Positions 8,082-30,442 of a stretch of 64,000 nucleotides of DNA are shown here, piece by piece. Positions within the stretch are counted from its first letter, which is position 1, and every line of letters begins with the position of its first letter. The position numbers were made by a program, and so were the translations under genes. Location: assembly GCA_017622555.1 (NCBI GenBank), contig JAGAQV010000027.1, positions 26,779 through 90,778 on the forward strand, read 5' to 3'. Below the pieces are notes generated by a model, which ran no database searches, was not told where the DNA came from, and saw only the letters and a list, made by a program, of their open reading frames with translations. This DNA is from Clostridia bacterium. Lineage in GTDB: Bacteria; Bacillota; Clostridia; Oscillospirales; Acutalibacteraceae.

Positions 8082-8086
8082 TGAAT

Positions 8087-8128: not shown

Positions 8129-8134
8129 ATTATT

Positions 8135-8581
8135 ATGCAACCCGATAAGAAAACTTATGATAAAATGACTAAAAAAGCATCCCCACCGTCACCAAAGCTT
8201 AAAGACTGTAGTTTAGCATTTCTTGTTGGCGGTTTTATATGCACAATAGGTCAGCTTTTAATGTCACTTTACGGTGATGTTTTCGGCTTAAAAGAGGATG
8301 TTGTAAAAATGCTTGTGCCCGTTACTCTCATAACACTTGCGGCAATTTTAACAGGCTTTGGTGTTTTCGATAAAATTGCAAAATTTGCAGGCGCAGGGAC
8401 ATTGGTGCCAATTACAGGCTTTTCAAACGCTGTCGTTTCACCTGCAATTGAATTTAAAAGCGAGGGTTACGTTTTAGGTGTTGGTGCTAAAATTTTTACT
8501 ATTGCAGGTCCTGTTATTGTTTACGGTACGATTGCGAGTGTGATTTATGGTGTTATTTATTGGGTAACTACATTACTTTAA
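8135..8581 (+). CDS. spoVAC: stage V sporulation protein AC (SpoVAC)
   Basis: The 148-residue inner-membrane protein belongs to the SpoVA channel that moves Ca-dipicolinate into the forespore and out at germination. It has the family pattern: CSLAFLVGGFICTIGQLL (first helix), ILTGFGVFDKIAKFAGAG, TLVPITGFSNAVVSPAIEFK, EGYVLGVGAKIFTIAGPVIV and a final helix. The reading frame is open back to 8081, but the ATG at 8135 begins the family-like N-terminus and has GAGGTG 9 bases upstream. The gene is intact, with A/T-rich codons throughout. spoVAD, normally the next gene, is 21 kb away; spoVAE is not in the window. Its last 120 or so bases recur three times downstream in diverged form. Confidence 0.94.
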   Translation: MQPDKKTYDKMTKKASPPSPKLKDCSLAFLVGGFICTIGQLLMSLYGDVFGLKEDVVKMLVPVTLITLAAILTGFGVFDKIAKFAGAGTLVPITGFSNAVVSPAIEFKSEGYVLGVGAKIFTIAGPVIVYGTIASVIYGVIYWVTTLL

Positions 8582-8620
8582 CTAGTAATATTAAAAGACA
8601 TCATTTTCATAAGGATATTA

Positions 8621-8655
8621 AAAATCAGCAGAAGAATTGTTCTTCTGCTGATTTT
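8621..8655 (+). terminator. Rho-independent terminator after spoVAC
   Basis: A 15-bp stem (AAAATCAGCAGAAGA with TCTTCTGCTGATTTT) with a 5-base loop, 40 bases after the spoVAC stop. Its sequence differs from the terminators after the displaced spoVAC ends. Confidence 0.8.
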
Positions 8656-8825
8656 ATGTTATACTTATTGTAAAGATTTGGAATAACTGATTAAAAAAGA
8701 AAAAATATTTAATAACGGATATAATTTGTAACAGAAAAATAGTGTTTATTTTTCATTAAATAAACCAACGGTGTGTGTATTAAATAGATATTTTTGATAT
8801 AATCTTTTTTAAGGAGTGATTATTT

Positions 8826-9344
8826 ATGGACCAGATAAAAATAGGGAATTTTATTTCCGAAAACAGAAAAAAGCAAAATTTAACACAAGAACAATTAGCG
8901 GAACAATTAAACATTAGTAAAAACGCTGTTTCAAAATGGGAACGAGGCTTGAATCTTCCAGATGTTTCAATTATGCAAGATTTATGCGAAATATTAGGTA
9001 TAACATTAAACGAACTTTTTGTCGGCGAAAAAATAAATGACGACGAATATAAGCAAGTGGCCGATAAAAATCTTTTGAAAGCTTTAGACAATAGTTCTTT
9101 TACATTAAAAGAGAAAATCATGTTCTATAAAAAGAAATGGAGAAAAGAACATATATCTAAGTTTATTATCGGTTTTGTTATTTGGTTTGTGATATGCATA
9201 GCGTTAAAATTACAAAATGTGGAACATTACCTTATCGGTGCAGTTAGTGGAATATTGACAACTTTATTTTATGCTGTTTGTAATAATCAAATGATGATAT
9301 ATGTTGAAAACCATGTTTATAAAAAGACAGAAAAGAAAGATTAG
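8826..9344 (+). CDS. XRE-family helix-turn-helix protein with C-terminal membrane region
   Basis: The 172-residue protein starts with a Cro/C1-type DNA-binding domain (residues 5-62: IGNFISENRKKQNLTQEQLA, then NISKNAVSKWERGLNLPDVS). A charged linker follows, then two membrane helices (about residues 112-127 and 133-149) and a lysine-rich tail (KKTEKKD). It is probably a membrane-tethered regulator, a common clostridial architecture of unknown signal. AAGGAG precedes the ATG. It is the first gene of module A of the spoVAC-end array and stands alone on the plus strand. A second protein of similar design is encoded at 32941-33810. Confidence 0.85.
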   Translation: MDQIKIGNFISENRKKQNLTQEQLAEQLNISKNAVSKWERGLNLPDVSIMQDLCEILGITLNELFVGEKINDDEYKQVADKNLLKALDNSSFTLKEKIMFYKKKWRKEHISKFIIGFVIWFVICIALKLQNVEHYLIGAVSGILTTLFYAVCNNQMMIYVENHVYKKTEKKD

Positions 9345-9438
9345 CTTTTAAATTCAATAGGGGGTCGCGGAAATCAAAAATATTTGTACATACAAATGCG
9401 ATGCTGTTTCTTCTTTTCTTATCCACTAAAACAAAATT

Positions 9439-9467
9439 AAAACCTCGATGATTTTCATCGAGGTTTT
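9439..9467 (+). terminator. Rho-independent terminator after the XRE membrane regulator
   Basis: AAAACCTCGATGA and TCATCGAGGTTTT form a 13-bp stem around a 3-base loop. The DNA from 9468 to 9562 shows nothing else recognisable. Confidence 0.75.
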
Positions 9468-9562
9468 AAACATCTTTATAAAAATTGCTTTTACGGTGTT
9501 TTTTTTATTTGTTTTTAAATGGTGGTTACATACTTCATTGGGCATTTTTCATAAACTTTATA

Positions 9563-10501
9563 TCATAGCATTTTTGCAAGTTTTATTGCACCGTTTGTTA
9601 GAAATTGGATGTTTTCTTCACGATAAACTACATCTTTATTTGTATGTATTCTATCCATATACAGAGTTCCAAATAACTTTGATTTTTTTAACGCAGCAAC
9701 ACCGATTCCACCCTTGAAAGAGGCATTATCAGAAGGATAGAAAGCATTTTTTGTTATATCAACGGCAATTTCAGGTGTAGAAACAAATGCTTTTTTAAAT
9801 AGTTCTGCATATTTTTTAGTTGTTCTTTTTAGTGCAAATAAGATTGTTTCTCCGTCAGAAACGCAATCGAAATTGATAACAAGGGAGTTTTTCTTTATAT
9901 TTTTATGCTTAGAAGCAAATGATAAGGAACCAAAAAGTCCAGCTTCTTCAAGGTCGAAGAAAACAAAGGCTACCTTACTTTTTTGGTCTTCTGGTAGTTC
10001 TCTCATAATATCAAGTAAGGTTGTAACACCTGATGTGTTATCGTTTGCGGTGTGTTTGTTAGCAGGGCCACCTAATAATAAATACAGCAAAACCAAGTAA
10101 AAACTCTGCGATAAGAAATACGCTATTGCGTATGAAACATTTTCATTAATAGGAAGGAACGATACTGTAAAACCAGATAAAAAACCGATCGCAAAGGCAA
10201 GGATAAAGAATAATCCCACAATTAAAAACTGATACAGCAAATAAATCAAAAAGTTTTTGGGTGTTATAAAATTGGGGAAAGGAAGTCGAGCGCATGTATC
10301 GTAATGGGCAGTGTAGAGAACTTTCGCAGTGTCAGGCTCTCCGATAACAATATTTCTGGCGCCGAAGGCTCCTTTTTCAATCTTAAAATCATATCCATAG
10401 CGTTCTGCAACTTCTTTTACATATTCAATAAAAGCGGTTTTTTGCTTTTTTGTTTTTCTGACTTGGTATTTTTCAAATATTACTTTTGTTGTTTCTGTCA
10501 T
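9563..10501 (-). CDS. M28-family metallopeptidase with internal membrane helices
   Basis: The 312-residue protein keeps the two-zinc ligand set of M28 aminopeptidases: His66 (YTAHYD), Asp153 (TANDNTSG), Glu185-Glu186 (FFDLEEAGLFG), Asp212 (FDCVSDG) and His286 (IHTNKD). Between the first and second ligand are two or three hydrophobic segments (about residues 82-112 and 123-144), which would place the enzyme in the membrane. There is no signal peptide, so the catalytic side may face the cytoplasm. AAAGGAA precedes the ATG. It is in module A, on the opposite strand to the first regulator. Substrate unknown; a role in processing or degrading a small peptide is speculative. Confidence 0.85.
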   Translation of the reverse strand: MTETTKVIFEKYQVRKTKKQKTAFIEYVKEVAERYGYDFKIEKGAFGARNIVIGEPDTAKVLYTAHYDTCARLPFPNFITPKNFLIYLLYQFLIVGLFFILAFAIGFLSGFTVSFLPINENVSYAIAYFLSQSFYLVLLYLLLGGPANKHTANDNTSGVTTLLDIMRELPEDQKSKVAFVFFDLEEAGLFGSLSFASKHKNIKKNSLVINFDCVSDGETILFALKRTTKKYAELFKKAFVSTPEIAVDITKNAFYPSDNASFKGGIGVAALKKSKLFGTLYMDRIHTNKDVVYREENIQFLTNGAIKLAKML

Positions 10502-10594
10502 ATTTAAATTCCTTTAATATAGCGGTGCAACCTATGGTTCGCCATAATCATATAATATTTTACACCAAAATTAAAATATATCAACCCTTTTGTC

Positions 10595-10801
10595 TTAAAA
10601 GTAAAACAGTTCTTCAAATTTTTTGTCTAAAGCAGTGCAAATGACTAATGCAAGTTTCGCAGTAGGGCAAAATTGACCAGTTTCAATAGAACTAATTGTA
10701 TTTCGGGATACACCAACCATATCGGCCAACTGTTGTTGAGATAGATTTATTTCAGTTCTGACTTTTTTTAGATTGTTTTTTAAAACAAGTGAATCTTCCA
10801 T
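10595..10801 (-). CDS. small XRE-family transcriptional regulator
   Basis: This is a 68-residue single-domain helix-turn-helix protein (NLKKVRTEINLSQQQLADMV, then GVSRNTISSIETGQFCPTAK, ending ALDKKFEELFYF), typical of the short clostridial regulators such as YgzD/PlcR-N type. The reading frame extends 12 codons upstream, but the ATG at 10799-10801 is directly preceded by GGGGGATAAT, a strong Shine-Dalgarno, and fits the family start. That Shine-Dalgarno overlaps the stop of the preceding small membrane gene, so the two are translationally coupled. It probably regulates its own operon. Confidence 0.88.
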   Translation of the reverse strand: MEDSLVLKNNLKKVRTEINLSQQQLADMVGVSRNTISSIETGQFCPTAKLALVICTALDKKFEELFYF

Positions 10802-10802
10802 A

Positions 10803-11129
10803 TTATCCCCCGATATTGTCCAATATGTAAACCACAACGTGAAATATGCAAACTAGTCCCCAAAGAATTGATAAACCAATATCAGACTTCTTTTTCAGTA
10901 TTACTGCATCGATTATATTTTTGGTGAACGCCATACCGCAGTATATAATCCAAATATGTGTTGTGCTTCTGTCGAATATCGCCCCCTCGACAATCACCAT
11001 CACCATACAAATAAGACCACAAATACCTGAACTCGTAGCGTACGATCGTAAGTTAATCGTTGCTTCTCTTTCGTCTCCTTTTTTTTTGTTTTCCTCGCGG
11101 CTTTTTTGTAAAATATCATCTTTGTTCAT
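10803..11129 (-). CDS. small membrane protein, DUF6442-like (paralogue 1)
   Basis: The 108-residue protein starts MNKDDILQKSREENKKKGDE, a charged N-terminus, and then has three hydrophobic segments (about residues 35-52, 56-75 and 84-104). The start is chosen at 11129 because GGAGATTT lies just upstream; the frame is open 24 codons further. It is a clear paralogue of the product encoded at 11198-11521 (shared MNKD(D/E)IL(Q/A)KSREENK and an (I/L)EKKK-type motif before the last helix). Such genes are typically found with a small XRE regulator, as here, in clostridia. Assignment to DUF6442 is from memory of its length and N-terminal motif. Function unknown. Confidence 0.7.
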   Translation of the reverse strand: MNKDDILQKSREENKKKGDEREATINLRSYATSSGICGLICMVMVIVEGAIFDRSTTHIWIIYCGMAFTKNIIDAVILKKKSDIGLSILWGLVCIFHVVVYILDNIGG

Positions 11130-11197
11130 AATAAATCTCCTTTGTCCGCTCTTCTTTAATGCTGTTTTTAGTGTAAGCTTGTTTTTCATACATAGCC

Positions 11198-11521
11198 TCA
11201 AATCAGTTCAAATAGTAATTTTGTCATAAAGAGAATAAAGAAGATCACATTCACAATTGCACCTAGCCAGCCTAGTTTTTTCTTTTCAAATATGGCGAGC
11301 ACTAGCCCGTTGCTTGCGGTGATGCCCCAGTAAATGCTGAAACAACCGTAAAAAAGAATAACAGAATCTCCAAATATACCTTCCAGAAACGCGACAATGC
11401 AACACAAAGCCATACCGACTGCGCTGGCGATTGTTCCGGCTTTTTGCTGCAAATGCTTTTGCCGTTCATCCGCAGATTTGTTTTCTTCCCGACTCTTTGC
11501 CAATATTTCATCTTTATTCAT
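11198..11521 (-). CDS. small membrane protein, DUF6442-like (paralogue 2)
   Basis: A 107-residue paralogue of the product at 10803-11129: MNKDEILAKSREENKSADER, then three hydrophobic segments (about residues 30-47, 52-75, 84-105). GGAGATCAATC precedes the ATG at the right distance. It is transcribed first in a three-gene minus-strand set (paralogue 2, paralogue 1, XRE regulator). The duplication inside a module bounded by displaced spoVAC ends suggests recent accessory origin. Function unknown. Confidence 0.7.
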   Translation of the reverse strand: MNKDEILAKSREENKSADERQKHLQQKAGTIASAVGMALCCIVAFLEGIFGDSVILFYGCFSIYWGITASNGLVLAIFEKKKLGWLGAIVNVIFFILFMTKLLFELI

Positions 11522-11613
11522 GATTGATCTCCTTTGCCAAGTTTTCTGTGCACAATCACATTATAACAACTCCAAGTAAACTTGTCAAGAACTTTTTGCA
11601 AAGTTTTCTTGGC

Positions 11614-11647
11614 AAATTAATGTGTCCTATATTGACAGCAGCAGAGG
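11614..11647 (+). repeat. conserved arm preceding displaced spoVAC end 2
   Basis: These 34 bases match 14444-14477 with only two differences (by eye) and the arm at about 19147-19172 more loosely. The core TGTGTCCTATATTGACA has no counterpart in intact spoVAC, so it marks a boundary belonging to the modules rather than to the gene. Confidence 0.75.
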
Positions 11648-11763
11648 GTTATGTTTTAGGCGTTGGTGCGAAGATGTTTACAATAGCCGGCCCCGTGATT
11701 GTCTATGGCACAGTTGCAAGTGTAATTTATGGGGTTATTTATTGGATATATAAAATGATTTAA
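11641..11763 (+). pseudogene. displaced spoVAC 3' end, copy 2
   Basis: The frame reads AEGYVLGVGAKMFTIAGPV, IVYGTVASVIYGVIYW, IYKMI, stop: the last 40 residues of SpoVAC without the rest. Compared with intact spoVAC, the 81 bases 11668-11748 differ at 18 positions (hand count), nearly all synonymous, and the codons are richer in G/C at third positions. The same 81 bases match 19194-19274 with one difference. No start codon context or upstream coding sequence is present, so it is not a gene. It ends module A. Confidence 0.9.
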
Positions 11764-11795
11764 AACAAGGCTTGACCAAACGGTCAAGCCTTGTT
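11764..11795. terminator. terminator after displaced spoVAC end 2, shared with the SIS gene
   Basis: A 14-bp perfect stem (AACAAGGCTTGACC with GGTCAAGCCTTGTT, 4-base loop). It serves both strands, as the minus-strand SIS gene ends 2 bases away. Its core GCTTGACCAAA-CGGTCAAGC recurs after displaced end 4. Confidence 0.85.
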
Positions 11796-11797
11796 CG

Positions 11798-12424
11798 TTA
11801 TATATCAAAGAAATATGCTTCCACCGTTGCGCAAAGGTAATGGTAGATCGGCAGATGTAATTCCTGGATTTTATATGTTTCCATTCCCGGGGCGCATATG
11901 CAGATGTCGGCGATTTCCTTTAGTTTTCCACCGGCACTACCGGTCAGTCCGATCACATGAATCCCGGAGGCCTTGGCGATCTCTGCTGCTGCACAAACAT
12001 TTTTTGCATTGCCTGAAGTGCTTATGCAAATGAGAATATCGCCCTTATTACCCAGCCCGAAAACGCTTTGGGCATAAATAAGATCCGGGTCGATATCATT
12101 GCAAACAGCACTATTTAGTGCAGTTAAGGAACATAGAGATAATGCAGGGAGTCCACATTGCAACTTATCAAGAAGTTCTGCATTCAAAGACGGATACTGT
12201 TCCAGTATGCGTTTTTTGAGACTTCCTTTTATAGGGCGTTTTTTTAAAAAGCCCTTCATAAGTTCCCCAACAATATGATCAGCATCTGCACAACTGCCAC
12301 CATTGCCGCAGGCCATAACCTTTTTGCCGTCGGAATAGCAGTGAATCAATGCTTCTGCAGCTTGTTGGATGGTTTCTTTACAAGCAAACAGGGATGGATA
12401 ACGGTTTAATAATTCATTCAACAT
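11798..12424 (-). CDS. SIS-domain phosphosugar isomerase, GmhA-like
   Basis: The 208-residue protein has a SIS fold with the GmhA (sedoheptulose-7-phosphate isomerase) look: GKKVMACGNGGSCADADHIV near residues 33-52, GDILICISTSGNAKNVCAAA near 128-147, HVIGLTGSAGGKLKEIADIC, and C-terminal IQELHLPIYHYLCATVEAYF (HE/HLP segment). An insertion around residues 60-85 (KKRPIKGSLKKRILEQYPSL) is also seen in GmhA-like proteins that are not lipopolysaccharide enzymes. In this Gram-positive setting, beside a ROK kinase (9-base gap) and an AraC regulator, it likely isomerises a phosphorylated sugar in a catabolic route. The substrate cannot be read from sequence. Confidence 0.82.
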   Translation of the reverse strand: MLNELLNRYPSLFACKETIQQAAEALIHCYSDGKKVMACGNGGSCADADHIVGELMKGFLKKRPIKGSLKKRILEQYPSLNAELLDKLQCGLPALSLCSLTALNSAVCNDIDPDLIYAQSVFGLGNKGDILICISTSGNAKNVCAAAEIAKASGIHVIGLTGSAGGKLKEIADICICAPGMETYKIQELHLPIYHYLCATVEAYFFDI

Positions 12425-12433
12425 ATCAATACC

Positions 12434-13381
12434 TCACAGTAGTGCTGTAGCAACAGCGGCATAATCTCCGATACGTTCGCCAAGGGCGGCCGAACGTATC
12501 CGGCAATGGCCAGCAGAGGCAGCGAGTGCTTCTTGTTCAATCACAGCGAGAGCGCTGGGCCAAAGCAAATCGTGGCATCTGCTAAAAATACTTCCAAGTA
12601 CAATAACTTCGGGGTCTAGAAGATCGATGATTATGGATAATCCTTTGCCAAGATATTCGCCACAAACACGATAGACGGCCAGTGCGGTTTCATCTCCTGC
12701 TTTGGCAGCATCTGCTACGGACTTTGCGGTTACATCCTTTGGTGTCATACCCTTTTGGAAATACATAGGGTAAATACCCTTCTGGATCTTTTCCAAAGCC
12801 ATGGTATATCCAAGCTGGGAAAGTCCGTTTCCACTACAAAAACCCTCGAAAGATCCTGCTTTACCATAACCAACCGGCCCAAAACGGTCAAGGCGTATAT
12901 GCCCAACTTCACCTGCGTTATTGCTGGCGCCACAGTATAGCTCTCCATTCAGGATCAAACCGGCGCCAAGCCCTGTGCCGAAAGTCAAAAATACAACGTT
13001 TTGCGCTCCTCGGCCGGCACCGAATTTCCATTCTGCCAAGGCGCAAGCGTTGGCATCATTTTGCAGTTTGACGGGTACACCATAATGATTTGATAAAATC
13101 TTTACGATCTCCACATGATCCCAACCGGGCAGGTTAGGAGGACCTAAGATCACGCCCTTTTGGGAGTCCAGCGGACCGCCACAGGAAATACCAATGGCAT
13201 CGGGTTTACCATCCGCAATACTGTCAGCCAGAAGAATGAGTTTTTGAATCATTTTCTCGGGGGTGATTTGCAAATCTGTAGGAATCGTTTCGGTTCGCAG
13301 CAGTTCAATATGATTCCCATCCCAAAGGGCGGTAGTTACAGCACATTTGGTGCCGCCAATATCAAAAGCTAATATTTTCAT
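12434..13381 (-). CDS. ROK-family sugar kinase
   Basis: This 315-residue protein has the ROK kinase layout: phosphate-binding LAFDIGGTKCAV at residues 3-14, catalytic-region DANACALAEWKFGAGRGAQN near residues 124-143, TFGTGLGAGLILNGELY, and GEVGHIRLDRFGP near 178-190. The usual ROK zinc motif (CxCGxxGCxE) is not present after GHIRL; the segment reads GYGKAGSFEGFCSGNGL, so zinc binding may be lost or altered. No N-terminal HTH is present, so it is a kinase not a repressor. It is transcribed with the SIS isomerase and divergently from an AraC regulator, suggesting kinase plus isomerase in one sugar pathway. Codons are more G/C-rich than the flanking core genes. Confidence 0.86.
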   Translation of the reverse strand: MKILAFDIGGTKCAVTTALWDGNHIELLRTETIPTDLQITPEKMIQKLILLADSIADGKPDAIGISCGGPLDSQKGVILGPPNLPGWDHVEIVKILSNHYGVPVKLQNDANACALAEWKFGAGRGAQNVVFLTFGTGLGAGLILNGELYCGASNNAGEVGHIRLDRFGPVGYGKAGSFEGFCSGNGLSQLGYTMALEKIQKGIYPMYFQKGMTPKDVTAKSVADAAKAGDETALAVYRVCGEYLGKGLSIIIDLLDPEVIVLGSIFSRCHDLLWPSALAVIEQEALAASAGHCRIRSAALGERIGDYAAVATALL

Positions 13382-13651
13382 AGCATTTCTTCTCCATTAA
13401 TCTTTTGGGAATATTCAGTAAACAGCACCTGATCCCAATTAGATGTATTGTCTGCGCCATTGCCACATGGGATCTAAATGAGCATTTCCAACCAAATAAT
13501 AAGTGTCTCTTTTCATTTTAACATAACCCCTTACAGAATACGTTTTTATTTTATTATACCTAAAATAAAAAAGCAGACAATGTCTTTACTTTGATAGGTA
13601 TTGTTTTTTTTTACGATTTTTGGTATACTCATATTAAGGAGATGTGTTAGA

Positions 13652-14443
13652 ATGAAAAAACTATCTAAAAGTACGTTTATCGGTAACAATGACATGGTCG
13701 CCTCTCAAAAACATATTACAGGAAACCATTCTGCCCATTTTCATGAATTTTGCGAGATAGAATACGTATTGAATGGAAGCGGTAGCTGCATACTAAACGG
13801 TCAAACCTTTGAGATGAAAAAGGGGATGTTGTTTTTTATGACACCGTTGGACTGTCATAGTGTAAAATCTAAAGGGGTGGAGGTTATCAATGTAATGTTT
13901 TCGGAGCAACTTGTTGATTTTTCAACACTGAAGCCGTTCTTCCTTTATTCATCACCGAAAGCAATTGCCATTGAGCCGCAAATGCAACCATTTTTTGAAA
14001 TGCTTTTAACCGAAATAACACAGGCAGGTAATCAAAGGCAGTACTGTGCAACTTTGTTGAAATGTCTTTTGCTGAAATTATCTCAGTTATTGCCATCATT
14101 AGGGGCTCAAAATTTAAGCGATTCGGTTTCTAAAATGCATTTTTATGCGTTATATCATTTTCAGAATAATGCAACATTAAGTGCTGCGGCAAAATATGCC
14201 GGGTTAACACCCTCCTATGCTTCTGCGCTTTTCAAAAAGGAAATGCAGGTGAATTATGGGGAGTACATAGATTCACTGAGATTTAATCATGCGAAAAAAA
14301 TGCTGATCTGTTCCACACTCTCTGTTTCGGAAATTTGCGCAGAAAGTGGCTTTGAAGATGTTCCAAATTTTTTAAGAAGATTCAAAATGCGCTTTGGCAT
14401 AACGCCAACCCAGTTCCGAAAGGAACTCGTTACATCCCAATAG
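13652..14443 (+). CDS. AraC-family transcriptional regulator of module B
   Basis: The 263-residue protein has an N-terminal cupin sensor (HSAHFHEFCEIEYVLNGSGS, FEMKKGMLFFMTP) and a C-terminal double helix-turn-helix (SAAAKYAGLTPSYASALFKK, then SVSEICAESGFEDVPNFLRR, FKMRFGITPTQFRKE). The frame opens 17 codons earlier, but the ATG at 13652 has AAGGAG upstream. It is divergent from the ROK/SIS pair across about 270 bases and most likely controls them. The stop codon is immediately followed by the conserved arm of displaced spoVAC end 3. Confidence 0.88.
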   Translation: MKKLSKSTFIGNNDMVASQKHITGNHSAHFHEFCEIEYVLNGSGSCILNGQTFEMKKGMLFFMTPLDCHSVKSKGVEVINVMFSEQLVDFSTLKPFFLYSSPKAIAIEPQMQPFFEMLLTEITQAGNQRQYCATLLKCLLLKLSQLLPSLGAQNLSDSVSKMHFYALYHFQNNATLSAAAKYAGLTPSYASALFKKEMQVNYGEYIDSLRFNHAKKMLICSTLSVSEICAESGFEDVPNFLRRFKMRFGITPTQFRKELVTSQ

Positions 14444-14477
14444 AAATTACTGTGTTCTATATTGACAGCAGCAGAGG
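14444..14477 (+). repeat. conserved arm preceding displaced spoVAC end 3
   Basis: It starts on the base after the AraC stop codon and matches 11614-11647 at 32 of 34 positions. The shared core TGTGT(C/T)CTATATTGACA is outside spoVAC homology. Confidence 0.75.
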
Positions 14478-14596
14478 TCTGGATCTTAGGCCTCGGCGCA
14501 AAGATGTTTACAATAGCAGGACCAGTGATCGTGTACGGTATCTCTGCGTCCGTGGTGTATGGACTGATATATTGGTTATGGACCTTCATTTTATAG
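14471..14596 (+). pseudogene. displaced spoVAC 3' end, copy 3
   Basis: The frame reads AEVWILGLGAKMFTIAGPV, IVYGISASVVYGLIYW, LWTFIL, stop: the last 41 or so residues of SpoVAC. It is the most diverged of the displaced ends and uses G/C-rich codons, so it appears to derive from a different donor spoVAC than copies 2 and 4. No start or upstream coding part is present. It ends module B. Confidence 0.88.
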
Positions 14597-14624
14597 AATT
14601 ATGTCAGGATAAAATACAGAGTAT

Positions 14625-14658
14625 GCATAGGTGCAAGTAACACGTCTTGCACTTATGC
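14625..14658 (+). terminator. terminator after displaced spoVAC end 3
   Basis: GCATAGGTGCAAG (14625-14637) pairs with CTTGCACTTATGC (14646-14658) with one G-T pair, followed by TTTTTTT. Confidence 0.8.
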
Positions 14659-14715
14659 TTTTTTTGTGTTATATTGAATGCATGAAAGGTCGATAGCAAA
14701 AAAAGGGGTGATAGG

Positions 14716-15681
14716 ATGAATAAAGAGATGTTGGCTTATTTACAAGGGATTACTGCTGAGGAAAAAGCAATCCTGGATGGAAAATCCTCCATTGACCGCG
14801 ACATTTATATGCAGGGGCAATCTAACACCGTTAATGCAAAGAAGCTTCTTGCGGCCGGCAAGCTGATCACGATTCGTCCCCATACCCGTTTTATACATTT
14901 TCCGGAGCATACACACGACTATGTGGAAGTGGTATATATGTGTGCCGGACAGACGACCCATATTGTCAATGGCAAGACCATAATTTTGGAACAGGGGGAT
15001 CTTTTGTTTCTCAGTCAGAGTGTGACCCATGAGGTTTGCAAAGCGGAGGAGGAAGATGTAGCGGTTAATTTTATCGTGTTGCCTGATTTCTTTGCCACGA
15101 CTTTGATTGCCATTGGTGAAGAGGAAACACCCCTTAGAAAGTTTCTTGTGGACTGCCTTTGTGGACAGAACACCGGGAGGGGATACCTGCATTTCAATGT
15201 TTCCGGCCTAAAACCGATTCAAAACCTGGTAGAAAATCTTCTTTGGACGCTTCTTGAGGAAACACCCAACAGACGGAAAATAAGCCAGACAACCATGGCA
15301 CTGCTGTTTTTGCAGTTGATGGGATACACGGAAATGCTTGCAAATGAAGATCAAGAAGATGCAGCGGTATTTCAGGTGCTTCGCTATGTGGAAACCAACT
15401 ATGTCCAAGGCAGCTTTGCGGAGATTTCCCAAAGGCTGCACTACGATCCATCCTGGCTCTCCCGTGAGATCAAACGGGAAACCGGAAAGACCTATACCCG
15501 ATTGGTGCAGGAAAAGCGGCTTGCGCAGGCTGCATTTCTGCTGAAAAACACGGATCGGAATGTGGCGGATATTTCTGCTGCGGTGGGATATGAAAATATT
15601 AGTTATTTCCACCGTATCTTTGCGGAGGCTTATGGAATGTCACCTAGGGATTACCGGTTGCAAGAGAGGACACTAATTTAG
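14716..15681 (+). CDS. AraC-family regulator of the rhamnose operon (RhaR/RhaS-like)
   Basis: A 321-residue regulator with an N-terminal cupin (HFPEHTHDYVEVVYMCAGQT, LEQGDLLFLSQSVTHEV, roughly residues 60-110) and a C-terminal AraC DNA-binding domain (GSFAEISQRLHYDPSWLSRE, IKRETGKTYTRLVQEKR, NVADISAAVGYENISYFHRI, FAEAYGMSPRDYR). GGGGTGATAGG precedes the ATG. It is 73 bases upstream of rhaB on the same strand and is very probably the L-rhamnose-responsive activator. It opens module C. Codons are clearly more G/C-rich than in the core genes on either side, pointing to horizontal origin. Confidence 0.9.
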   Translation: MNKEMLAYLQGITAEEKAILDGKSSIDRDIYMQGQSNTVNAKKLLAAGKLITIRPHTRFIHFPEHTHDYVEVVYMCAGQTTHIVNGKTIILEQGDLLFLSQSVTHEVCKAEEEDVAVNFIVLPDFFATTLIAIGEEETPLRKFLVDCLCGQNTGRGYLHFNVSGLKPIQNLVENLLWTLLEETPNRRKISQTTMALLFLQLMGYTEMLANEDQEDAAVFQVLRYVETNYVQGSFAEISQRLHYDPSWLSREIKRETGKTYTRLVQEKRLAQAAFLLKNTDRNVADISAAVGYENISYFHRIFAEAYGMSPRDYRLQERTLI

Positions 15682-15691
15682 AAAACAAAAG

Positions 15692-15754
15692 ACCTCCTGT
15701 TTTTCCTGCTACCATGCTAAAATAGTAGCAGTATGGAAAGTAGGAGGTTTTTTT
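15692..15754 (+). promoter_or_regulatory. hairpin overlapping the rhaB ribosome binding site
   Basis: ACCTCCT (15692-15698) pairs with AGGAGGT (15742-15748), and inside it CTGCTAC (15706-15712) pairs with GTAGCAG (15725-15731), with TTTCC/GGAAA partly extending the stem. The outer 3' arm is the rhaB Shine-Dalgarno and is followed by TTTTTTT just before the GTG start. The structure looks like a terminator for the regulator gene that would also hide the rhaB ribosome binding site. The inner repeat could instead be an AraC-protein binding site. Confidence 0.6.
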
Positions 15755-17056
15755 GTGGAGCATTATCTTGCAATAGATATTGGTGCATCTTCCGGGCGGC
15801 ATATCGTTGGCTGGAAGGAAAACGGCACGATTATCACAAAGGAAGTATACCGTTTTCCCAACGGCGTTAAGGAAGAAGATGGACACCTTGTCTGGGATGT
15901 ACATAAGCTCTTTTCGAATGTTGTGGCAGGTGTAATGGAGGCATTCCAGCAATATTCGGAAATCAAAAGCCTGTCTATCGATACCTGGGGTGTGGATTAT
16001 GTTTTACTGAAGGGAGACAAAGAAGTTTTGCCGGTTTACGCATACCGGGACAGTCGTACTGAGGCGCAGATCCCGCAGGTACATAAAGTTATGCCTTTTG
16101 CAGAGCTCTATCGCCGTACTGGCTGTCAGTTCCAACCCTTTAACACCATCTATCAATTATATGATGACAAGAGGAACGGGCGGTTGGACGGCGTTACCGA
16201 TGTATTGATGATGCCGGAGTACTTGTTGTGGAAGCTCTGCGACATCAAAGCAAGGGAGTATACCAACGCCACAACTATGGGCATGGTCAATGCCCAGTCC
16301 GGCGAGTTTGATGTGGAAATCGTAGATGTGCTGGGTTACCCCCGACATTTGTTCCCCAAGCTGCGTCAGCCGGGAACGGTTCTGGGAATGCTCCGACCTG
16401 AGATTGCGCAAACTGTTGGCGGAAATTGTAAAGTGGTGTTGTGCGCCACCCATGATACCGGTTCTGCGGTGGAGGGGATTCCTATGGAGGGGACCCATCT
16501 TTATATTTCCTCCGGCACATGGTCTTTGTTGGGCGTTAAGACGCCTAAGCCTATTACAGACACAGGGAGCGAAAAAGCCAATTACTCTAACGAGGGCGGA
16601 GTGGGTTACAACCGCTACCAGAAAAATATTATGGGCATGTGGCTGGTAAATGAGTTGCAGCGAGAGCTGTGCCCGGATATGAAATTCCCGGAAATCGTAA
16701 AGCTGGCAGAAGAAAGTGTGTGTGAACATGTGGTGGATGCCAATGCACCGGAGTTTTTTGCACCTAAGAGCATGAGAGCTGCTTTCGACCAGGCAACCGG
16801 GAATGGACTTGCCACCCGTGGCGATTATTTCCGTTGCGCTTACCGCTCGTTGGCAGTCAGTTATAAGCAGGCTATTACGGAATTAGAAGCCAATACGGGG
16901 TGCCGTTATAAGAAGCTTTATATCGTGGGCGGCGGCGCAAAGAATGCTTTTTTGAATCGCCTGACGGAAGAAGCTACCGGCAAAGAAGTAGTTGCATTGC
17001 CTATTGAGGCTACCGCTCTGGGCAATCTTAAAATACAGATGGAGGTAAACTTATGA
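15755..17056 (+). CDS. rhaB: L-rhamnulokinase, C-terminally short
   Basis: This FGGY-family kinase phosphorylates L-rhamnulose to L-rhamnulose-1-phosphate. It has YLAIDIGASSGRHIVGWK at the N-terminus (phosphate loop), IDTWGVDYVLL near residue 72, ATHDTGSAVEGIPMEG near 230, ISSGTWSLLGVKTPKPITD near 250, and IVGGGAKNAFLNRLTEEATG near 392 (adenosine motif). It starts with GTG after TAGGAGG. At 433 residues it is roughly 40-55 shorter than usual RhaB: the protein stops right after PIEATALGNL, where family members continue with VQ and a final helix. The stop overlaps the rhaA start (ATGA). The ATP and sugar motifs are intact, so activity is possible. Confidence 0.93.
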   Translation: MEHYLAIDIGASSGRHIVGWKENGTIITKEVYRFPNGVKEEDGHLVWDVHKLFSNVVAGVMEAFQQYSEIKSLSIDTWGVDYVLLKGDKEVLPVYAYRDSRTEAQIPQVHKVMPFAELYRRTGCQFQPFNTIYQLYDDKRNGRLDGVTDVLMMPEYLLWKLCDIKAREYTNATTMGMVNAQSGEFDVEIVDVLGYPRHLFPKLRQPGTVLGMLRPEIAQTVGGNCKVVLCATHDTGSAVEGIPMEGTHLYISSGTWSLLGVKTPKPITDTGSEKANYSNEGGVGYNRYQKNIMGMWLVNELQRELCPDMKFPEIVKLAEESVCEHVVDANAPEFFAPKSMRAAFDQATGNGLATRGDYFRCAYRSLAVSYKQAITELEANTGCRYKKLYIVGGGAKNAFLNRLTEEATGKEVVALPIEATALGNLKIQMEVNL

Positions 17057-18309
17057 GCTACGCAGAAGCAAAACAAAAGTATTTGAATATAGGCATCGAT
17101 GCGGATGCTGCTATCGAAAAACTGAAAACAGTTCCTGTGGCCCTGCACTGCTGGCAGGGTGACGATGTACGTGGATTTGATACTGACCCCACAAAACCCC
17201 TGACCGGCGGCATTCAGACCACCGGCAACTATCCCGGCCGCGCCCGGACTCCGGAGGAACTGATGGCGGATATCGACAAGGTCATCAGCTTGGTGCCCGG
17301 TCTGGTGAAAATGAACCTGCACGCCAGCTATGCCATCTTTGATGAGGATAACGGTGGCTGGGTAGACCGAGACAAGCTGGAGCCTAAGCATTTTCAAAAA
17401 TGGGTGGATTTCTGCAAGGAACGTGGCTTGGGTTGCGATTTTAACCCCACCTTCTTCAGCCACCCCAAGTGCGATCCGCTGACACTGTCCAGTCCCAGCG
17501 AAGAAACGCGCAGATTCTGGGTAGAGCACGGCAAGGCTTGCGTCCGGATCTCTCAGTATCTGGCTGATGAGCTGGGGCAGCCTTGTGTAATGAATATCTG
17601 GACAGGCGATGGCTTTAAGGATATTCCCGCTGATCGGTTGGGGCCCCGCCTGCGTTACAAGCAGTCCTTTGACGAGATTCTGTCCGAACCCTTTGATCCA
17701 AAAAAGGTCTATCCCTGCGCTGAATCCAAGGTCTTTGACATCGGTGTGGAAAGCTATACCGTTGGCTCTGCAGAGTGGTGCCTGAAATATGCCGATTCCC
17801 GGCCTGATTGCATCAGTTTGATGGATAACGGCCACTATCACCCCACAGAGGTGGTCAGCGATAAGATTTCTGCTATTTTGACCTATGATAAAAAAATGGC
17901 GCTTCATGTGACCCGCGGTGTCCGCTGGGACAGTGACCATGTGGTACTTTTTGATGACGAGACAAAGGAGATCTGCAAAGAGATCGTCCGTTGTGACGGA
18001 TTAGACAAGGTCTTTATTGCGCTGGACTATTTTGATGCATCTATCAATCGGGTATCCGCCTGGGTAACCGGCTTCCGGAATCTGCAGAAATGCCTACTGT
18101 TTGCCCTGCTGCAGCCAAACAATGAACTGAAGAAGCTGCAGGATGAAGGAAACTGGGGAAAGCTTATGGTCCTGCAGGAGGAGCTGAAGACTATGCCCTT
18201 TGGGGATGTTTGGGAGGAATACTGCAGGGTCTGCGGAAAGCCTGCAGACGGCCAATGGCTACCCCAGATCGAGTTATACGAAAAAGAAGTACAGAGCAAG
18301 AGAGGATAA
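17053..18309 (+). CDS. rhaA: L-rhamnose isomerase
   Basis: A 418-residue metal-dependent isomerase converting L-rhamnose to L-rhamnulose. Typical motifs are HCWQGDDVRGFD near residues 32-43, GGIQTTGNYPGRARTPEEL, LVKMNLHASYA, DFNPTFFSHPKCDPLTLSSP (metal ligand and active-site region), MNIWTGDGFKDIPADRLGPR, and SLMDNGHYHPTEVVSDKISA. The length is the family norm. It overlaps rhaB by four bases (ATGA) with GGAGG upstream, so the two are coupled. Codons are G/C-rich relative to the core genome. Confidence 0.97.
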   Translation: MSYAEAKQKYLNIGIDADAAIEKLKTVPVALHCWQGDDVRGFDTDPTKPLTGGIQTTGNYPGRARTPEELMADIDKVISLVPGLVKMNLHASYAIFDEDNGGWVDRDKLEPKHFQKWVDFCKERGLGCDFNPTFFSHPKCDPLTLSSPSEETRRFWVEHGKACVRISQYLADELGQPCVMNIWTGDGFKDIPADRLGPRLRYKQSFDEILSEPFDPKKVYPCAESKVFDIGVESYTVGSAEWCLKYADSRPDCISLMDNGHYHPTEVVSDKISAILTYDKKMALHVTRGVRWDSDHVVLFDDETKEICKEIVRCDGLDKVFIALDYFDASINRVSAWVTGFRNLQKCLLFALLQPNNELKKLQDEGNWGKLMVLQEELKTMPFGDVWEEYCRVCGKPADGQWLPQIELYEKEVQSKRG

Positions 18310-18314
18310 ATAAC

Positions 18315-19130
18315 ATGAAGAATATTATGAATGCACCCTTTGTGGAGGAGATGCGCAAAACCACCGCAAATATGTACCGCCTTGGTTGGGATGAGCGCAA
18401 CGGCGGCAATATCAGTTATATGCTGGACGAAGTCGAAGTAGGGGAGTACCTGGATCTGAATAATATCATTCGTACCATCCCTCTTGGTTTTGATGCCACT
18501 GCAATTACCGGAAAAATATTTATTGTTACCGGCACCGGCAAGTATTTTAAGAATGTGGATGGCGACCCTGAAACCAATCTGGGTATCGTTCGGATCGCTG
18601 ATGATGGTCGGACTGCCGAGCTGTTGTGGGGTTACAAGGACGGCGGCAAATTTACCTCTGAGTTCCCCGCCCACCTGATGAGCCACATGGCACGCTTGTC
18701 TGTAGATCCGGAAAACCGGGTGGTCATGCACTGCCATCCTACCCACACTCTGGCTATGAACTATGTTCACGAGCTGGATGAGAAGAAGTTCACCCATACT
18801 CTGTGGGAGATGTGCACTGAGTGCATCGTTGTATTCCCTGATGGCGTGGGTGTTCTGCCCTGGATGCTCTGCGGAACGAACTCTATCGGTGAAGCTACCG
18901 CTGAGAAGATGAAGGAATTCCGACTGGTGGTATGGGGTATGCACGGTATCTACAGTGCCGGCAAGACAATGGATGAGACCTTTGGCCTGATCGAAACTGT
19001 GGAAAAGGCCGCACAGATCTACATGCTTACTGCCCATCTGCCCAGAATCAATACAATTAAGGACGAGGAAATGGTTGAGCTGGCAGAGTTCTTTGGTGTA
19101 AATTATCGCAAGGACTTTTTGAACTTGTAA
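18315..19130 (+). CDS. rhaD: rhamnulose-1-phosphate aldolase
   Basis: This 271-residue class II aldolase splits L-rhamnulose-1-phosphate to dihydroxyacetone phosphate and L-lactaldehyde. It shows GWDERNGGNISYML near residue 24, TGTGKYFKNV near 75, MHCHPTHTLAMNYVHELDE with the zinc histidines near 139-143, and VWGMHGIYSAGKTMDETFGL with the third ligand near 210. The frame is open 35 codons upstream inside rhaA, but the ATG at 18315 gives the family N-terminus and length, with AGAGGA upstream. It is the last gene of module C; no lactaldehyde reductase or rhamnose transporter is in the module. Confidence 0.96.
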   Translation: MKNIMNAPFVEEMRKTTANMYRLGWDERNGGNISYMLDEVEVGEYLDLNNIIRTIPLGFDATAITGKIFIVTGTGKYFKNVDGDPETNLGIVRIADDGRTAELLWGYKDGGKFTSEFPAHLMSHMARLSVDPENRVVMHCHPTHTLAMNYVHELDEKKFTHTLWEMCTECIVVFPDGVGVLPWMLCGTNSIGEATAEKMKEFRLVVWGMHGIYSAGKTMDETFGLIETVEKAAQIYMLTAHLPRINTIKDEEMVELAEFFGVNYRKDFLNL

Positions 19131-19146
19131 GGACAGCATAAAGCAC

Positions 19147-19172
19147 TGCGTCCTAAGTTGACACAAGCAGAA
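19147..19172 (+). repeat. conserved arm preceding displaced spoVAC end 4
   Basis: The bases CTGCGTCCTAAGTTGACA followed by CAAGCAGA correspond to the arms before copies 2 and 3, with several differences. They start 16 bases after the rhaD stop codon and are outside spoVAC homology. Confidence 0.6.
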
Positions 19173-19289
19173 GGAATGGTCTTAGGCGTCGGCGCGAAGA
19201 TGTTTACAATAGCAGGCCCCGTGATTGTCTATGGCACAGTTGCAAGTGTAATTTATGGGGTTATTTATTGGATAACTACTCTTTTCTAA
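19167..19289 (+). pseudogene. displaced spoVAC 3' end, copy 4
   Basis: The frame reads AEGMVLGVGAKMFTIAGPV, IVYGTVASVIYGVIYW, ITTLF, stop. Bases 19194-19274 match 11668-11748 with a single difference, although the two copies are 7.5 kb apart and enclose unrelated genes. The ending ITTLF resembles VTTLL of the intact gene. It ends module C. Confidence 0.9.
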
Positions 19290-19290
19290 C

Positions 19291-19323
19291 AAAAAAGCTT
19301 GACCAAATCGGTCAAGCTTTTTT
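19291..19323 (+). terminator. terminator after displaced spoVAC end 4
   Basis: AAAAAAGCTTGACC and GGTCAAGCTTTTTT form a 14-bp stem around a 5-base loop. The core is nearly the same as in the terminator at 11764-11795, so the repeated unit extends past the spoVAC stop. Confidence 0.85.
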
Positions 19324-19329
19324 GTGTAT

Positions 19330-19358
19330 TTGCTTTTTATAGTTTAATGTATTATAAT
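19330..19358 (+). promoter_or_regulatory. promoter of the radical SAM gene
   Basis: TTGCTT (19330-19335), 17 bases, TATAAT (19353-19358), about 22 bases before the TTG start codon. Confidence 0.65.
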
Positions 19359-19380: not shown

Positions 19381-20241
19381 TTGTATAAAACGACGAATGA
19401 TTATTATAAAGAAAAGTATGGCTGTAAGGTATATAAGCTTTCTATTGATGGTGGTTTTACTTGCCCTAACCGTGACGGCAGTGTTTCTACGGGTGGTTGT
19501 ATTTTTTGCTCTGCTTTAGGCGGTGGCGAATTTGCTGAAAGTGGTAGTAATATTTTAGAACAGCTAGAACGTGCAAAAAACAGGGTAGAATCAAAGAATA
19601 TAAATGGTAAATATATTGCATATTTTCAGTCCTTCACAAACACCTACGCTCCCGCAAGCCGTTTAAAAAAGCTGTTTTATCAAGCAATAAAGCCCGATTA
19701 TATTGTTGGGCTAAACATTGGTACCAGACCCGACTGTTTACCAAATGATGTAATTGAACTTTTAAAAGAATTAAATAAGATTAAGCCCGTAACGGTTGAA
19801 TTGGGGCTTCAAACCTCAAATGATAATGTTGCCGAATATATAAACCGTGGCTATAAAACTGAAATATATAAAGATGCTGTTTTACGCCTTAAAAATGCAG
19901 GCATTGATGTTATAACACATATAATTATTGGTTTACCTAATGATGACCCCATTCAAACAACCAAATTTGTAGTTAACTGTGGAACTAATGGTGTTAAATT
20001 TCATCTTTTACATATTCTTAAAAATACCCGTTTGGCTAAAGAATTTGAAACCGGCAGGGTAGAGGTATTAACAATTGAACAATATGCCAAAGTGCTAAAA
20101 AATTGCATTGCTGTTTTAACACCTGACATAGTTGTTCATAGAATAACGGGTGACGGTGCTAAAAAGGATTTAATTGCACCGCTTTGGTCAGCCGATAAAA
20201 AGAAAACATTAAATTATTTAAATAAATATTTACAAAAATAA
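19381..20241 (+). CDS. TIGR01212-family radical SAM protein (YhcC-like)
   Basis: This 286-residue protein has the iron-sulfur motif CPNRDGSVSTGGCIFCSALG near residues 24-43, with the wider Cys spacing typical of the YhcC/TIGR01212 group rather than the plain CxxxCxxC. Further family motifs are YFQSFTNTYAPASRLKKLF, NIGTRPDCLPNDVIELL and ELGLQTSNDNVAEYINRGYK. The start is TTG with GAGGTGA 7 bases upstream, and its own promoter lies just after the array. The substrate is not established for this family. It is the first core-type gene to the right of the spoVAC-end array. Confidence 0.92.
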   Translation: MYKTTNDYYKEKYGCKVYKLSIDGGFTCPNRDGSVSTGGCIFCSALGGGEFAESGSNILEQLERAKNRVESKNINGKYIAYFQSFTNTYAPASRLKKLFYQAIKPDYIVGLNIGTRPDCLPNDVIELLKELNKIKPVTVELGLQTSNDNVAEYINRGYKTEIYKDAVLRLKNAGIDVITHIIIGLPNDDPIQTTKFVVNCGTNGVKFHLLHILKNTRLAKEFETGRVEVLTIEQYAKVLKNCIAVLTPDIVVHRITGDGAKKDLIAPLWSADKKKTLNYLNKYLQK

Positions 20242-29437: not shown

Positions 29438-30442
29438 ATGGTAAAAAAACTTGGAAAAACAGTTATTTTAGAAAACAAACCAACAATTATAGGTTATGGC
29501 TCAATTGTGGGTAAAAAAGAGCATGAAGGGCCTTTATCAAACGAATTTGATACTTATATTGATGACAGTTACTTTGGCGAAGAAAGCTATGAAAAAGCTG
29601 AAAGCAAATTGCAAACAACAGCGGTTGAAATTGCACTTAAAAAATCAAATCTAAAGCCAGAGGATATTGATAAAATTTTTGCAGGTGATTTATTAAATCA
29701 ATGTATTGGCTCATCATTTGGGCTTCGTGATTTCCAAATACCTTTTATTGGTCTTTACGGTGCGTGTTCAACAATGGCGCTGTCCACTGCACTGGCATCA
29801 ATTTTTGTCGACTGCGGTGCGGCTGATAAGGCAATAGCAGTAACTTCTTCACATTTTTGTTCGGCGGAAAGGCAATATCGCTTTCCGCTCAATTACGGAA
29901 ATCAACGTACACCTACTGCACAATGGACTGTTACAGGTTCGGGCGCTCTTGTAATTGGAAAAGGGAAAAATATGCCATATATAAATGCCGTTACGTTCGG
30001 CGCTATTCAAGACCTTGGAATAACGGATGCTAACAATATGGGTGCTGCTATGGCACCTGCTGCAGCCTCAACCATTAGTCAATTTTTTAAGGACACCAAA
30101 ACTTCGCCCGAAGACTATGATATTATCTATACGGGTGATCTCGGTCGGGTTGGAACCGAACTGTTATATGAGCTTATGGATAAAGAAGGGTATGACCTTC
30201 GTTGTAGACACGCTGACTGTGGGAATATAATTTTTAGTGTCGATAATCAGGATGTTCATGCAGGTGGCTCAGGCTGTGGTTGCTCGGCATCAGTTTTAGC
30301 TTCATTTGTAATGCATCGTTTTGAAGAAAATCAGTTTAAAAACATTTTGTTTGTGTCGACGGGGGCATTATTGTCGCCAACCTCCTCATTACAGGGTGAA
30401 ACAATACCCGGTATTGCGCATTTATTGAATATTAAAAAGTAG
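29438..30442 (+). CDS. spoVAD: stage V sporulation protein AD (SpoVAD)
   Basis: This 334-residue thiolase-fold protein binds dipicolinic acid and is part of the spore SpoVA channel. Motifs include GYGSIVGKKEHEGPLSNEFD near residues 20-39, DIDKIFAGDLLNQCIGSSFG, GLYGACSTMALSTALASIFV (the thiolase-like Cys loop), SSHFCSAERQYRFPLNYGNQ, and HAGGSGCGCSASVLAS with a TGALLSPTSSLQGETIPGIA end. The ATG at 29438 (AAAGAGGG upstream) is chosen over an earlier frame opening. In most spore formers it lies between spoVAC and spoVAE; here it is alone, 21 kb from spoVAC. Confidence 0.95.
   Translation: MVKKLGKTVILENKPTIIGYGSIVGKKEHEGPLSNEFDTYIDDSYFGEESYEKAESKLQTTAVEIALKKSNLKPEDIDKIFAGDLLNQCIGSSFGLRDFQIPFIGLYGACSTMALSTALASIFVDCGAADKAIAVTSSHFCSAERQYRFPLNYGNQRTPTAQWTVTGSGALVIGKGKNMPYINAVTFGAIQDLGITDANNMGAAMAPAAASTISQFFKDTKTSPEDYDIIYTGDLGRVGTELLYELMDKEGYDLRCRHADCGNIIFSVDNQDVHAGGSGCGCSASVLASFVMHRFEENQFKNILFVSTGALLSPTSSLQGETIPGIAHLLNIKK

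Follow-up and report, generated by a model that had tools for sequence, protein, structure and literature searches.

Gene modules behind displaced spoVAC 3' ends in Acutalibacteraceae: codon 110 as a candidate serine-recombinase attachment site

How does a sporulation gene come to be followed by three further copies of its own 3' end, each set apart from the next by unrelated genes? The question is raised by a stretch of 64,000 nt from the 1.6-Mb genome of a Clostridia bacterium of the family Acutalibacteraceae (assembly GCA_017622555.1, contig JAGAQV010000027.1, positions 26,779 to 90,778; hereafter "the window"). Here an intact spoVAC gene precedes three modules, each of which closes with an in-frame spoVAC 3' end and a terminator. 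The answer that we favor, with a probability of roughly 0.7, is that codon 110 of spoVAC would be an attachment site for serine recombinases, at which cassettes that lack a recombinase of their own accumulate.

The array and its junctions

Each of the three displaced 3' ends ("tails") in the window opens at the glutamate codon equivalent to position 8462 of the intact gene (Glu110), and each is immediately preceded by a tag of about 22 nt that is absent from intact spoVAC. Two types of tag can be distinguished, type 1 (GTCCTATATTGACAGCAGCAGA) and type 2 (GTCCTAACTTGACACAAGCAGA-like). With as many as 5 mismatches in 22 positions allowed on both strands of the 64 kb, the tag is present at exactly three places (11624, 14454, and 19150). 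Since it lies directly before each copy and nowhere else in the window, the displaced ends are not a product of chance. The array is built from the following parts.

8135..8581, plus strand: intact spoVAC, the target gene (PF03862, E 6.7e-43)
8440..8485, plus strand: putative attB-like attachment site within spoVAC, with a predicted exchange point near the GAG of Glu110 (8462-8464)
8621..8655: hairpin terminator 3' of intact spoVAC (fold of 8582-8680, z -4.0)
11624..11645, plus strand: tag 1, type 1 (exact match), a putative P half-site that ends in the GA core
11644..11763, plus strand: spoVAC tail copy 2, 39 codons plus stop, starting at the Glu codon
11764..11795: bidirectional-looking terminator after copy 2 (fold of 11764-11800, z -8.2)
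14454..14475, plus strand: tag 2, type 1, with one mismatch (pattern match)
14474..14596, plus strand: spoVAC tail copy 3, 40 codons plus stop, starting at the Glu codon
14597..14660: terminator region of copy 3 (fold of 14597-14680, z -6.4)
19150..19171, plus strand: tag 3, type 2, which differs at 1 of 22 positions from the end tag of L256, a contig with a recombinase trio (see below)
19170..19289, plus strand: spoVAC tail copy 4, the final one in the array, starting at the Glu codon
19289..19325: terminator after copy 4 (fold of 19289-19335, z -7.5)

An earlier account made from the letters of the window alone (the sequence-only reading) had described this layout, and the PF03862 match, the tails, and the three hairpins that follow them bear it out. 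Its count for copies 2 and 4, which are equal at 80 of 81 positions, is exact; these positions lie within 120-nt tails that differ at both ends, and copy 3 is more distant, as had also been stated. Likewise, one XerD-like and three serine-recombinase queries give no significant tblastn match in the 64-kb window (best E 0.069), in agreement with the earlier statement that it holds no recombinase.

The junction is not peculiar to this DNA. A SpoVAC match is detected by tblastn in 69 of the 70 genomes of the genus, and many of these carry extra 3' ends behind spoVAC. Each genome represents a species; many are metagenome bins in fragments, and contig breaks cut several arrays short. At least one extra spoVAC end or tag is present at 18 of the 56 readable loci of the genus (from 17 genomes); absence at the other 38 is not always firm, as some contigs stop soon after spoVAC. 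The type-1 tag, with up to 3 mismatches, occurs at 31 places in 18 of the 70 genomes, compared with 8 for a reversed control pattern. At the family level, with up to 2 mismatches, it is found in 31 of 398 genomes and 23 of 135 genera (6 hits for the reversed pattern). Fifteen of the 27 tag loci from other genera run directly into a SpoVAC tail. Another 6 have a decayed or missing tail (L211, L212, L214, L215, L223, and L229) and were kept as tag sites in the junction counts, and 6 (L207, L208, L210, L216, L222, and L230), whose surroundings are unrelated sequence, look like chance and were set aside.

Among all collected loci, 58 of 62 tails start at residues 108-112 of the SpoVAC query. For two of the others (L127 and L139) the tag is at the same codon and the alignment simply extends past it; L128 is a true exception, which has no tag, and one weak copy in L153 is ambiguous. 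Of 72 aligned junctions, 69 have a tag when up to 7 mismatches are allowed; 54 of these tags are type 1 and 15 are type 2.

Several other properties of the tag and the terminator were considered and rejected. A comparison by eye of the tag with dif/Xer sites gave an unconvincing likeness. Type-2 tags do not mark the distal, oldest end of an array, given that 6 of 12 type-2 and 28 of 49 type-1 tags are last (Fisher p 0.75). Nor is the terminator a genome-wide repeat: the pattern GGCTTGACC-N3-8-GGTCAAGCC is present in 5 of 10 genomes, at 1-3 places each, on array contigs. A mismatched terminator in L125 may point to a crossover within the hairpin. Between the spoVAC stop codon and the terminator, the first tail of L244 and the last tail of L119 have a repeat of ~100-150 nt (GGCCCCCT...GGGAGG type), rich in hairpins, that resembles a miniature insertion element.

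Variable modules between fixed flanks

Relatives carry from zero to three modules (four in L153, counting the weak copy), with differing cargo at the same flanks. In the window and its relatives, the distance from spoVAC to the TIGR01212 gene of the right flank ranges from 0.84 to 10.8 kb, with different modules between. It is 0.84 kb in L122 and L126, where no module is detected and one reversed gene intervenes. Three tails lie within 2.7 kb in L116 and within 10.8 kb in the window, and two within 5.4 kb in L115. The sister genome G008, the closest relative in the search (91% SpoVAC identity), has the same flanks with other modules, its array being split over two contigs. Independent assemblies show this layout repeatedly, among them that of G016 (99% complete, about 10 contigs), and several extend as far as the right flank. 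In the genome bin G012, an array follows each of two intact spoVAC genes (L119 = G012:C36 and L135 = G012:C5); there are either two loci or the bin is mixed.

Near-identical cargo is found across species and genera. L114 and L125 are 99.6% identical over 462 nt, and L120 is 98.4% identical over 320 nt to L244, which belongs to another genus. Module 2 of the window matches L237 (genome G378, again another genus) at 86.9% over 1638 nt; there it also lies behind spoVAC, with one gene more.

The sequence-only reading had named what would speak against it, namely the same modules fixed in all relatives or imprecise junctions; the modules in fact vary in number and cargo, and the junctions are precise. 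These two observations support its proposal that the modules stand in tandem at an attachment site in the end of a gene, here spoVAC.

Serine-recombinase trios at the same codon

A scan of viral contigs with the type-2 tag identifies one contig, L256 (IMG/VR); the type-1 tag was not found in these contigs. L256 encodes three tandem large serine recombinases (549, 567, and 535 aa), the third of which ends about 120 bp before the tag. The tag is followed by a spoVAC tail, a terminator, and a reversed gene for a NERD-domain protein. G205, a genome of another genus, has a trio with 63, 58, and 55% identity to that of L256. This trio, too, stops at the junction, where the tail leads directly into spoVAD. 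This tail and spoVAD align to the uninterrupted spoVAC-spoVAD of the congener G071. No 5' part of spoVAC was detected in G205, which leaves the left junction of its element unread. A third trio, in G558 from another family (62, 60, and 53% identity to L256, the first gene truncated at the contig edge), ends at the tag, a tail, and a SpoVAD-like frame recognized by eye. The inner 16 nt of the tag, ACTTGACACAAGCAGA, are identical in L256, G205, and G558, and its outer part varies. Thus, the search for recombinases beside spoVAC ends that the sequence-only reading had proposed yields large serine recombinase trios in one IMG/VR contig and two genomes; the window array has no such trio.

A fourth trio (about 52%) in the human faecal record L290 runs off the contig inside its third gene. 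More distant trios in G238, G100, and G055 have no SpoVAC tail in the stretches fetched; therefore, the wider recombinase clade has other targets. The L256 recombinases score 39-119 bits against the CcrA/B/C models where matched (Ccr cut-offs, 700-900), and the trio proteins score 75-133 bits against the XisF model (cut-off, 375). Other genes of the G205 element encode an actin-like protein, a DUF3854 protein, and a DUF6870 protein. A small protein directly upstream of the trio is conserved (L293:7214-7471 and L256:196-459; DUF6870 in G205, with that of L256 similar by eye) and is possibly a directionality factor. In G021, spoVAC is broken after ...AAAAACGA, and the proteins of the inserted DNA look mobile-element-like by eye.

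The history of the tails

The ratio of nonsynonymous to synonymous divergence (dN/dS) is 0.11 for tails compared with the intact spoVAC of their own genome (44 pairs) and 0.12 for tails compared with each other (27 pairs). For intact spoVAC genes of different genomes it is 0.09 (1459 pairs, identity range 0.68-0.90). A premature stop is present in 2 of 54 tails. Since the values for tails are close to those for orthologues, the tails diverged almost entirely while they were working gene ends, which fits each having been the end of a functional spoVAC before its displacement.

The sequence-only reading had traced the ends to functional spoVAC genes of other strains. Purifying selection upholds the functional origin, whereas the origin in other strains fits less well, because tails within a genome are closer to each other and to the host gene than those of other genomes are. 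Identity between intact gene and tail is 0.84 within and 0.71 between genomes over the first 57 nt, and 0.75 and 0.66, respectively, over the last 54 nt (44 and 2103 pairs).

The intact spoVAC genes of the window and G008 are 92% identical over the 291 nt before codon 110 and 74% identical over the 108 nt after it; for this one pair, the drop is a direct sign that the gene end has been replaced at codon 110. A clear drop is seen only in the window/L114 pair and, weakly, in L140/L145, and there is none in pairs such as L117/L118 and L119/L120.

A proposed mechanism and its alternatives

In the mechanism that we propose, the Glu110 codon of spoVAC would be where elements with a tandem trio of large serine recombinases attach to the chromosome. 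The tag would represent the P arm, one half of the attachment site of this element family, and GA would be the likely exchange dinucleotide. When the arm of L256 is joined to the opposite arm in G021, the result, GGGTCCTAACTTGACACAAGCA-GA-TGAGCGTGATATAATAGGACTC, is an imperfect inverted repeat (13/22, shuffle p 0.0006) that would fit the expectation for a serine-integrase attP with a GA core. The modules would be non-autonomous derivatives, whose recombinases were lost or never present, and each would end in the P arm and be separated from its neighbor by a working-type spoVAC 3' end and a terminator. With such an end at each junction, the front gene would stay whole whatever the number of modules. 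Recombinases supplied by an incoming full element could then insert and remove modules at the repeated junctions, presumably by way of circular intermediates, and so give rise to arrays; homologous recombination between terminators or tails would afterwards reshuffle tails and cargo. The junctions are precise and shared, and tag-like ends are present on three trio elements at the same codon, which points to a trio as the agent that may act on the cassettes.

A number of observations weigh against this reading. No close relative of the trio is found in the 70 genomes of the genus (the best by E-value is 33-36% identical). At the order level, 24 genomes have relatives of LSR1 (large serine recombinase 1), and the site, checked in two of these, is spoVAC in G558 and not in G100. 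At 4 of 22 positions the type-1 tags (54 of the 69) depart from the tag of L256, and none of the trios found has a type-1 end. Neither a circle nor a pair of empty and occupied strains of one species was seen. The attP-like repeat is suggestive only, because its arms come from two different elements. In addition, the genus-wide rank correlation lends no support to the idea that the intact-gene tails of array genomes are generally foreign: the across-site correlation is 0.36 in the 18 array loci and 0.23 in the 38 array-free loci, the opposite of what was predicted. Tails are also more alike within than between genomes, with patchy identity, which the simple form of the reading does not anticipate. 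Finally, in 6 pairs of complete cassettes the cargo is 88-99.6% identical, although the left tails (0.70-0.77) and the right tails (0.33-0.78) are unrelated. The unshared left tails count against the reading because a circle excised site-specifically at GA should carry its left tail, and, where examined, the break on the left falls close to the stop codon or the terminator rather than at the GA core. (The right break, where examined, lies at or near the GA core.) Near-identical cargo between unrelated tails means that homologous exchange must also act. The misfits may therefore mean that site-specific insertion is overlaid by homologous recombination, through crossovers within the terminators that modules share and through gene conversion between tails.

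Could homologous recombination alone move the arrays? Blocks of tag, tail, and terminator would then be inherited, RecA-type crossovers would take place in the conserved promoter, tag, and terminator stretches, and a single ancient site-specific event would have founded the array. Such a history would account for the movement of cargo without either tail and for the patches that tails share within a genome, such as the L153 tails with an identical first 57 nt and a diverged remainder, or the 81-nt patch of copies 2 and 4 in the window. It would also explain the first-cassette terminator of L125, which looks like two terminators joined: its arms are not fully complementary, and the right one is the same as in L114. 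However, the conserved stretches extend over only about 25-80 nt and the tails are about 75% identical, and stretches of this length or identity are poor RecA substrates. The sharp start at one codon across many genera requires repeated precise insertion, trios exist at the same site, and the identity of the window and its sister breaks at codon 110. Consequently, we consider homologous recombination unlikely to be the whole explanation.

A tyrosine recombinase, of the integron or Xer kind, would instead be the mover if the serine trios merely share the site. The arrays do look integron-like, and a PF00589 match is present in 69 of 70 genomes, with tyrosine recombinases of about 300 aa and about 336 aa in many genomes among the matches listed. 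The array-bearing genome G016, 99% complete, has two PF00589 and two PF00239 matches and none to the trio query. However, such proteins are also encoded by array-free genomes, consistent with housekeeping Xer recombinases; the window has no XerD-like match, and the tag-like ends sit on serine-trio elements. This explanation is improbable. Still less probable is an origin of the tails by local duplication or transposition (unequal crossover, or insertion sequences with long target duplications) with no exogenous ends at all. That the tails of a genome resemble the host gene more closely than the tails of other genomes do would be its natural outcome, but neutral duplicates would not have the dN/dS of working orthologues, and a common tag that is not spoVAC sequence would not stand at the junctions in many genera. 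Site-specific insertion at codon 110 by serine recombinases is left as the reading that we prefer, and the arrays are best described, as far as comparison of genomes can tell, as an SCC/CIME-like accretion (staphylococcal cassette chromosome; cis-mobilizable element) reduced to integron-like cassettes, the movement of which we infer.

Cassettes, cargo, and flanks

Sixty complete units lie between neighboring sites, with lengths of 421-8386 bp. A simple rule that takes the longest open reading frame (ORF) assigns a single ORF of at least 75 aa to 43 of them, and all but one of these 43 genes run against spoVAC. Beside the tag, on the minus strand, a block of the form TTTACA-N17-TATAAT is followed by a ribosome-binding-like stretch; we read the block as promoter-like, directed into the reversed cargo gene. 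It is present (up to 7 mismatches in 23) at 51 of the 69 typed junctions. The median unit is 794 bp with the block (41 units) and 3006 bp without it (16 units). A role for the block as a recombination signal was rejected because 18 of the 69 typed junctions, including the three of the window, have the tag and not the block. The modules of the window are of this longer kind, without the promoter-like block, and differ in G+C (0.33, 0.42, and 0.49 for modules 1, 2, and 3; 0.38 for the whole window). They and the genes beyond them are as follows.

8582..11643: module 1 (Pfam, ORFs; likewise for its genes)
8826-9344, plus strand: XRE regulator
9563-10501, minus strand: M28 peptidase
10595-10837, minus strand: small XRE protein
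10803-11132 and 11198-11521, both minus strand: two DUF6442 proteins
11796..14473: module 2 (NCBIfam, below curated cut-offs; Pfam)
11798-12424, minus strand: SIS sugar-phosphate isomerase-like protein (NCBIfam, below cut-off)
12434-13381, minus strand: ROK sugar kinase-like protein (NCBIfam, below cut-off)
13601-14443, plus strand: AraC regulator (Pfam)
14661..19169, plus strand: module 3, rhamnose pathway (NCBIfam)
14716-15681, plus strand: RhaS-like AraC regulator (NCBIfam, below cut-off)
15755-17056, plus strand: rhamnulokinase (NCBIfam, below cut-off)
17053-18309, plus strand: L-rhamnose isomerase (PRK01076, above cut-off)
18315-19130, plus strand: rhamnulose-1-phosphate aldolase (NCBIfam, above cut-off)
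19381..20241, plus strand: TIGR01212 radical SAM gene of the right flank (E 1e-92)
29438..30442 (about), plus strand: spoVAD (PF07451, E 1.1e-146)

Elsewhere, the cargo is mostly unfamiliar: 15 of 20 tested proteins, 19 of them from single-gene cassettes, have no Pfam family above cut-off. A Pfam scan covered 82 of the 105 cargo ORFs (those of the window itself and 12 others were left out). No integrase is present among the 25 most frequent of the 87 families in these 82 ORFs, and one TnpV is. One of the 82 proteins is a retron-type reverse transcriptase (RT_Ec107-like, E 1.5e-125); with this single protein and two weak matches to viperin models, no general pattern of a defense island emerges.

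The pair of spoVAC and spoVAD is split in the window, with spoVAD 20.9 kb further downstream and on the strand of spoVAC. It is separated by the whole interval 8582-29437, which extends beyond the array; the two genes are adjacent in G071 and, by eye, in array-free members of the genus such as L146. In the array-free relative L151, a XerD-like tyrosine recombinase (L151:5245-6132) lies about 1.8 kb downstream of spoVAC, and the spacing is similar in G013, G040, G041, G044, and G058. Upstream, between the end of luxS and the start of spoVAC, a near-perfect inverted repeat of 20 nt (95%) at 8084-8131 may be spoVAC's own upstream terminator or attenuator.

Relation to known systems

Integron arrays are linear series of mostly single, often unfamiliar genes with a shared block between them. 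In this respect, the arrays described here are alike, and the likeness to an integron cassette array noted in the sequence-only reading holds for the layout. It does not extend to the class: unlike integron cassettes, these have promoter-like blocks of their own, reversed genes (42 of 43), a serine-recombinase-like half-site, and a site inside a sporulation gene. No IntI-type recombinase was found beside the array, the XerD-like query having no match in the window, and the PF00589 matches of G000 lie on other contigs than the array (among the matches listed, the best 2 of 6). Judged by the two features examined, the recombinase and the promoter-like blocks with reversed genes, the arrays would not belong to the integrons and would be closer to serine-recombinase accretion of the SCC/CIME type. 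Phage 21 and e14 at icd of E. coli provide another partial parallel, in which an element restores the 3' end of the gene that it enters and displaces the old end, as here. Those, however, are single prophages with tyrosine integrases and without arrays.

Streptococcal integrative and conjugative elements (ICEs) with serine-integrase triplets occupy mutT, traG, and hsdM and are bounded by repeats of 2-8 bp (PMC4701971). The trio elements share with them three tandem large serine recombinases at one element end, the orientation to the target gene, tiny direct repeats, and a protein-coding target. The target here is spoVAC, and the streptococcal elements, in the part of that account available to us, are described without recombinase-less arrays of single-gene cassettes or repeated gene ends. 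SCC, SCCmec, and ccr-less SCC-like elements at orfX/rlmH likewise combine serine recombinases with the end of a core gene as the site and form tandem elements, some without a recombinase (PMC3637587). Unlike SCC, as far as this source's available text portrays it, the arrays described here are associated with a trio rather than CcrAB or CcrC, have a 120-nt coding gene end between modules, include many single-gene cassettes of 0.6-1.5 kb, and occur in other bacteria at spoVAC rather than rlmH. CIMEs have lost the integration genes and kept the attachment sites, stand in tandem at a gene end, and can be mobilized with an incoming element (PMC5704250). The arrays resemble such accretion in having recombinase-less units in tandem at one gene end, bounded by what may be half-sites if the tag is one. 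They differ from the accretion of CIMEs, ICEs, and integrative and mobilizable elements, as portrayed in the accessible part of the same source, in that many units are far smaller, the distribution is family-wide, and a conserved promoter-like block lies beside the end. spoVA genes are themselves mentioned as cargo of islands in the part of PMC6907783 that was available. A search of the open-access literature in PMC found no published description of spoVAC cassette arrays.

Implications

Integrons are the main known case of genes captured as arrays of small, single-gene cassettes. The arrays behind spoVAC are similar and occur in anaerobic gut bacteria that keep spore genes; another class of enzyme is implicated, and the dock is a core sporulation gene. 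Tentatively, and at somewhat less than even odds, they might form a counterpart of the integron that runs on serine recombinases: across the family, small genes, each self-expressed, would be stored at a sporulation gene without a fixed limit to their number. Every junction would have a working target-gene end, so that the gain or loss of a cassette would leave the gene unbroken, and the trios of passing elements would serve as a shared motor. If the reading is true, the arrays would make it possible to trace the movement of genes in uncultured gut bacteria, and they would yield mobile genes, many of them without a Pfam match, together with a new set of serine recombinases and attachment sites. 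Because insertions at the first site pass through spoVAC, they would also provide a testable link between sporulation and the gain of genes.

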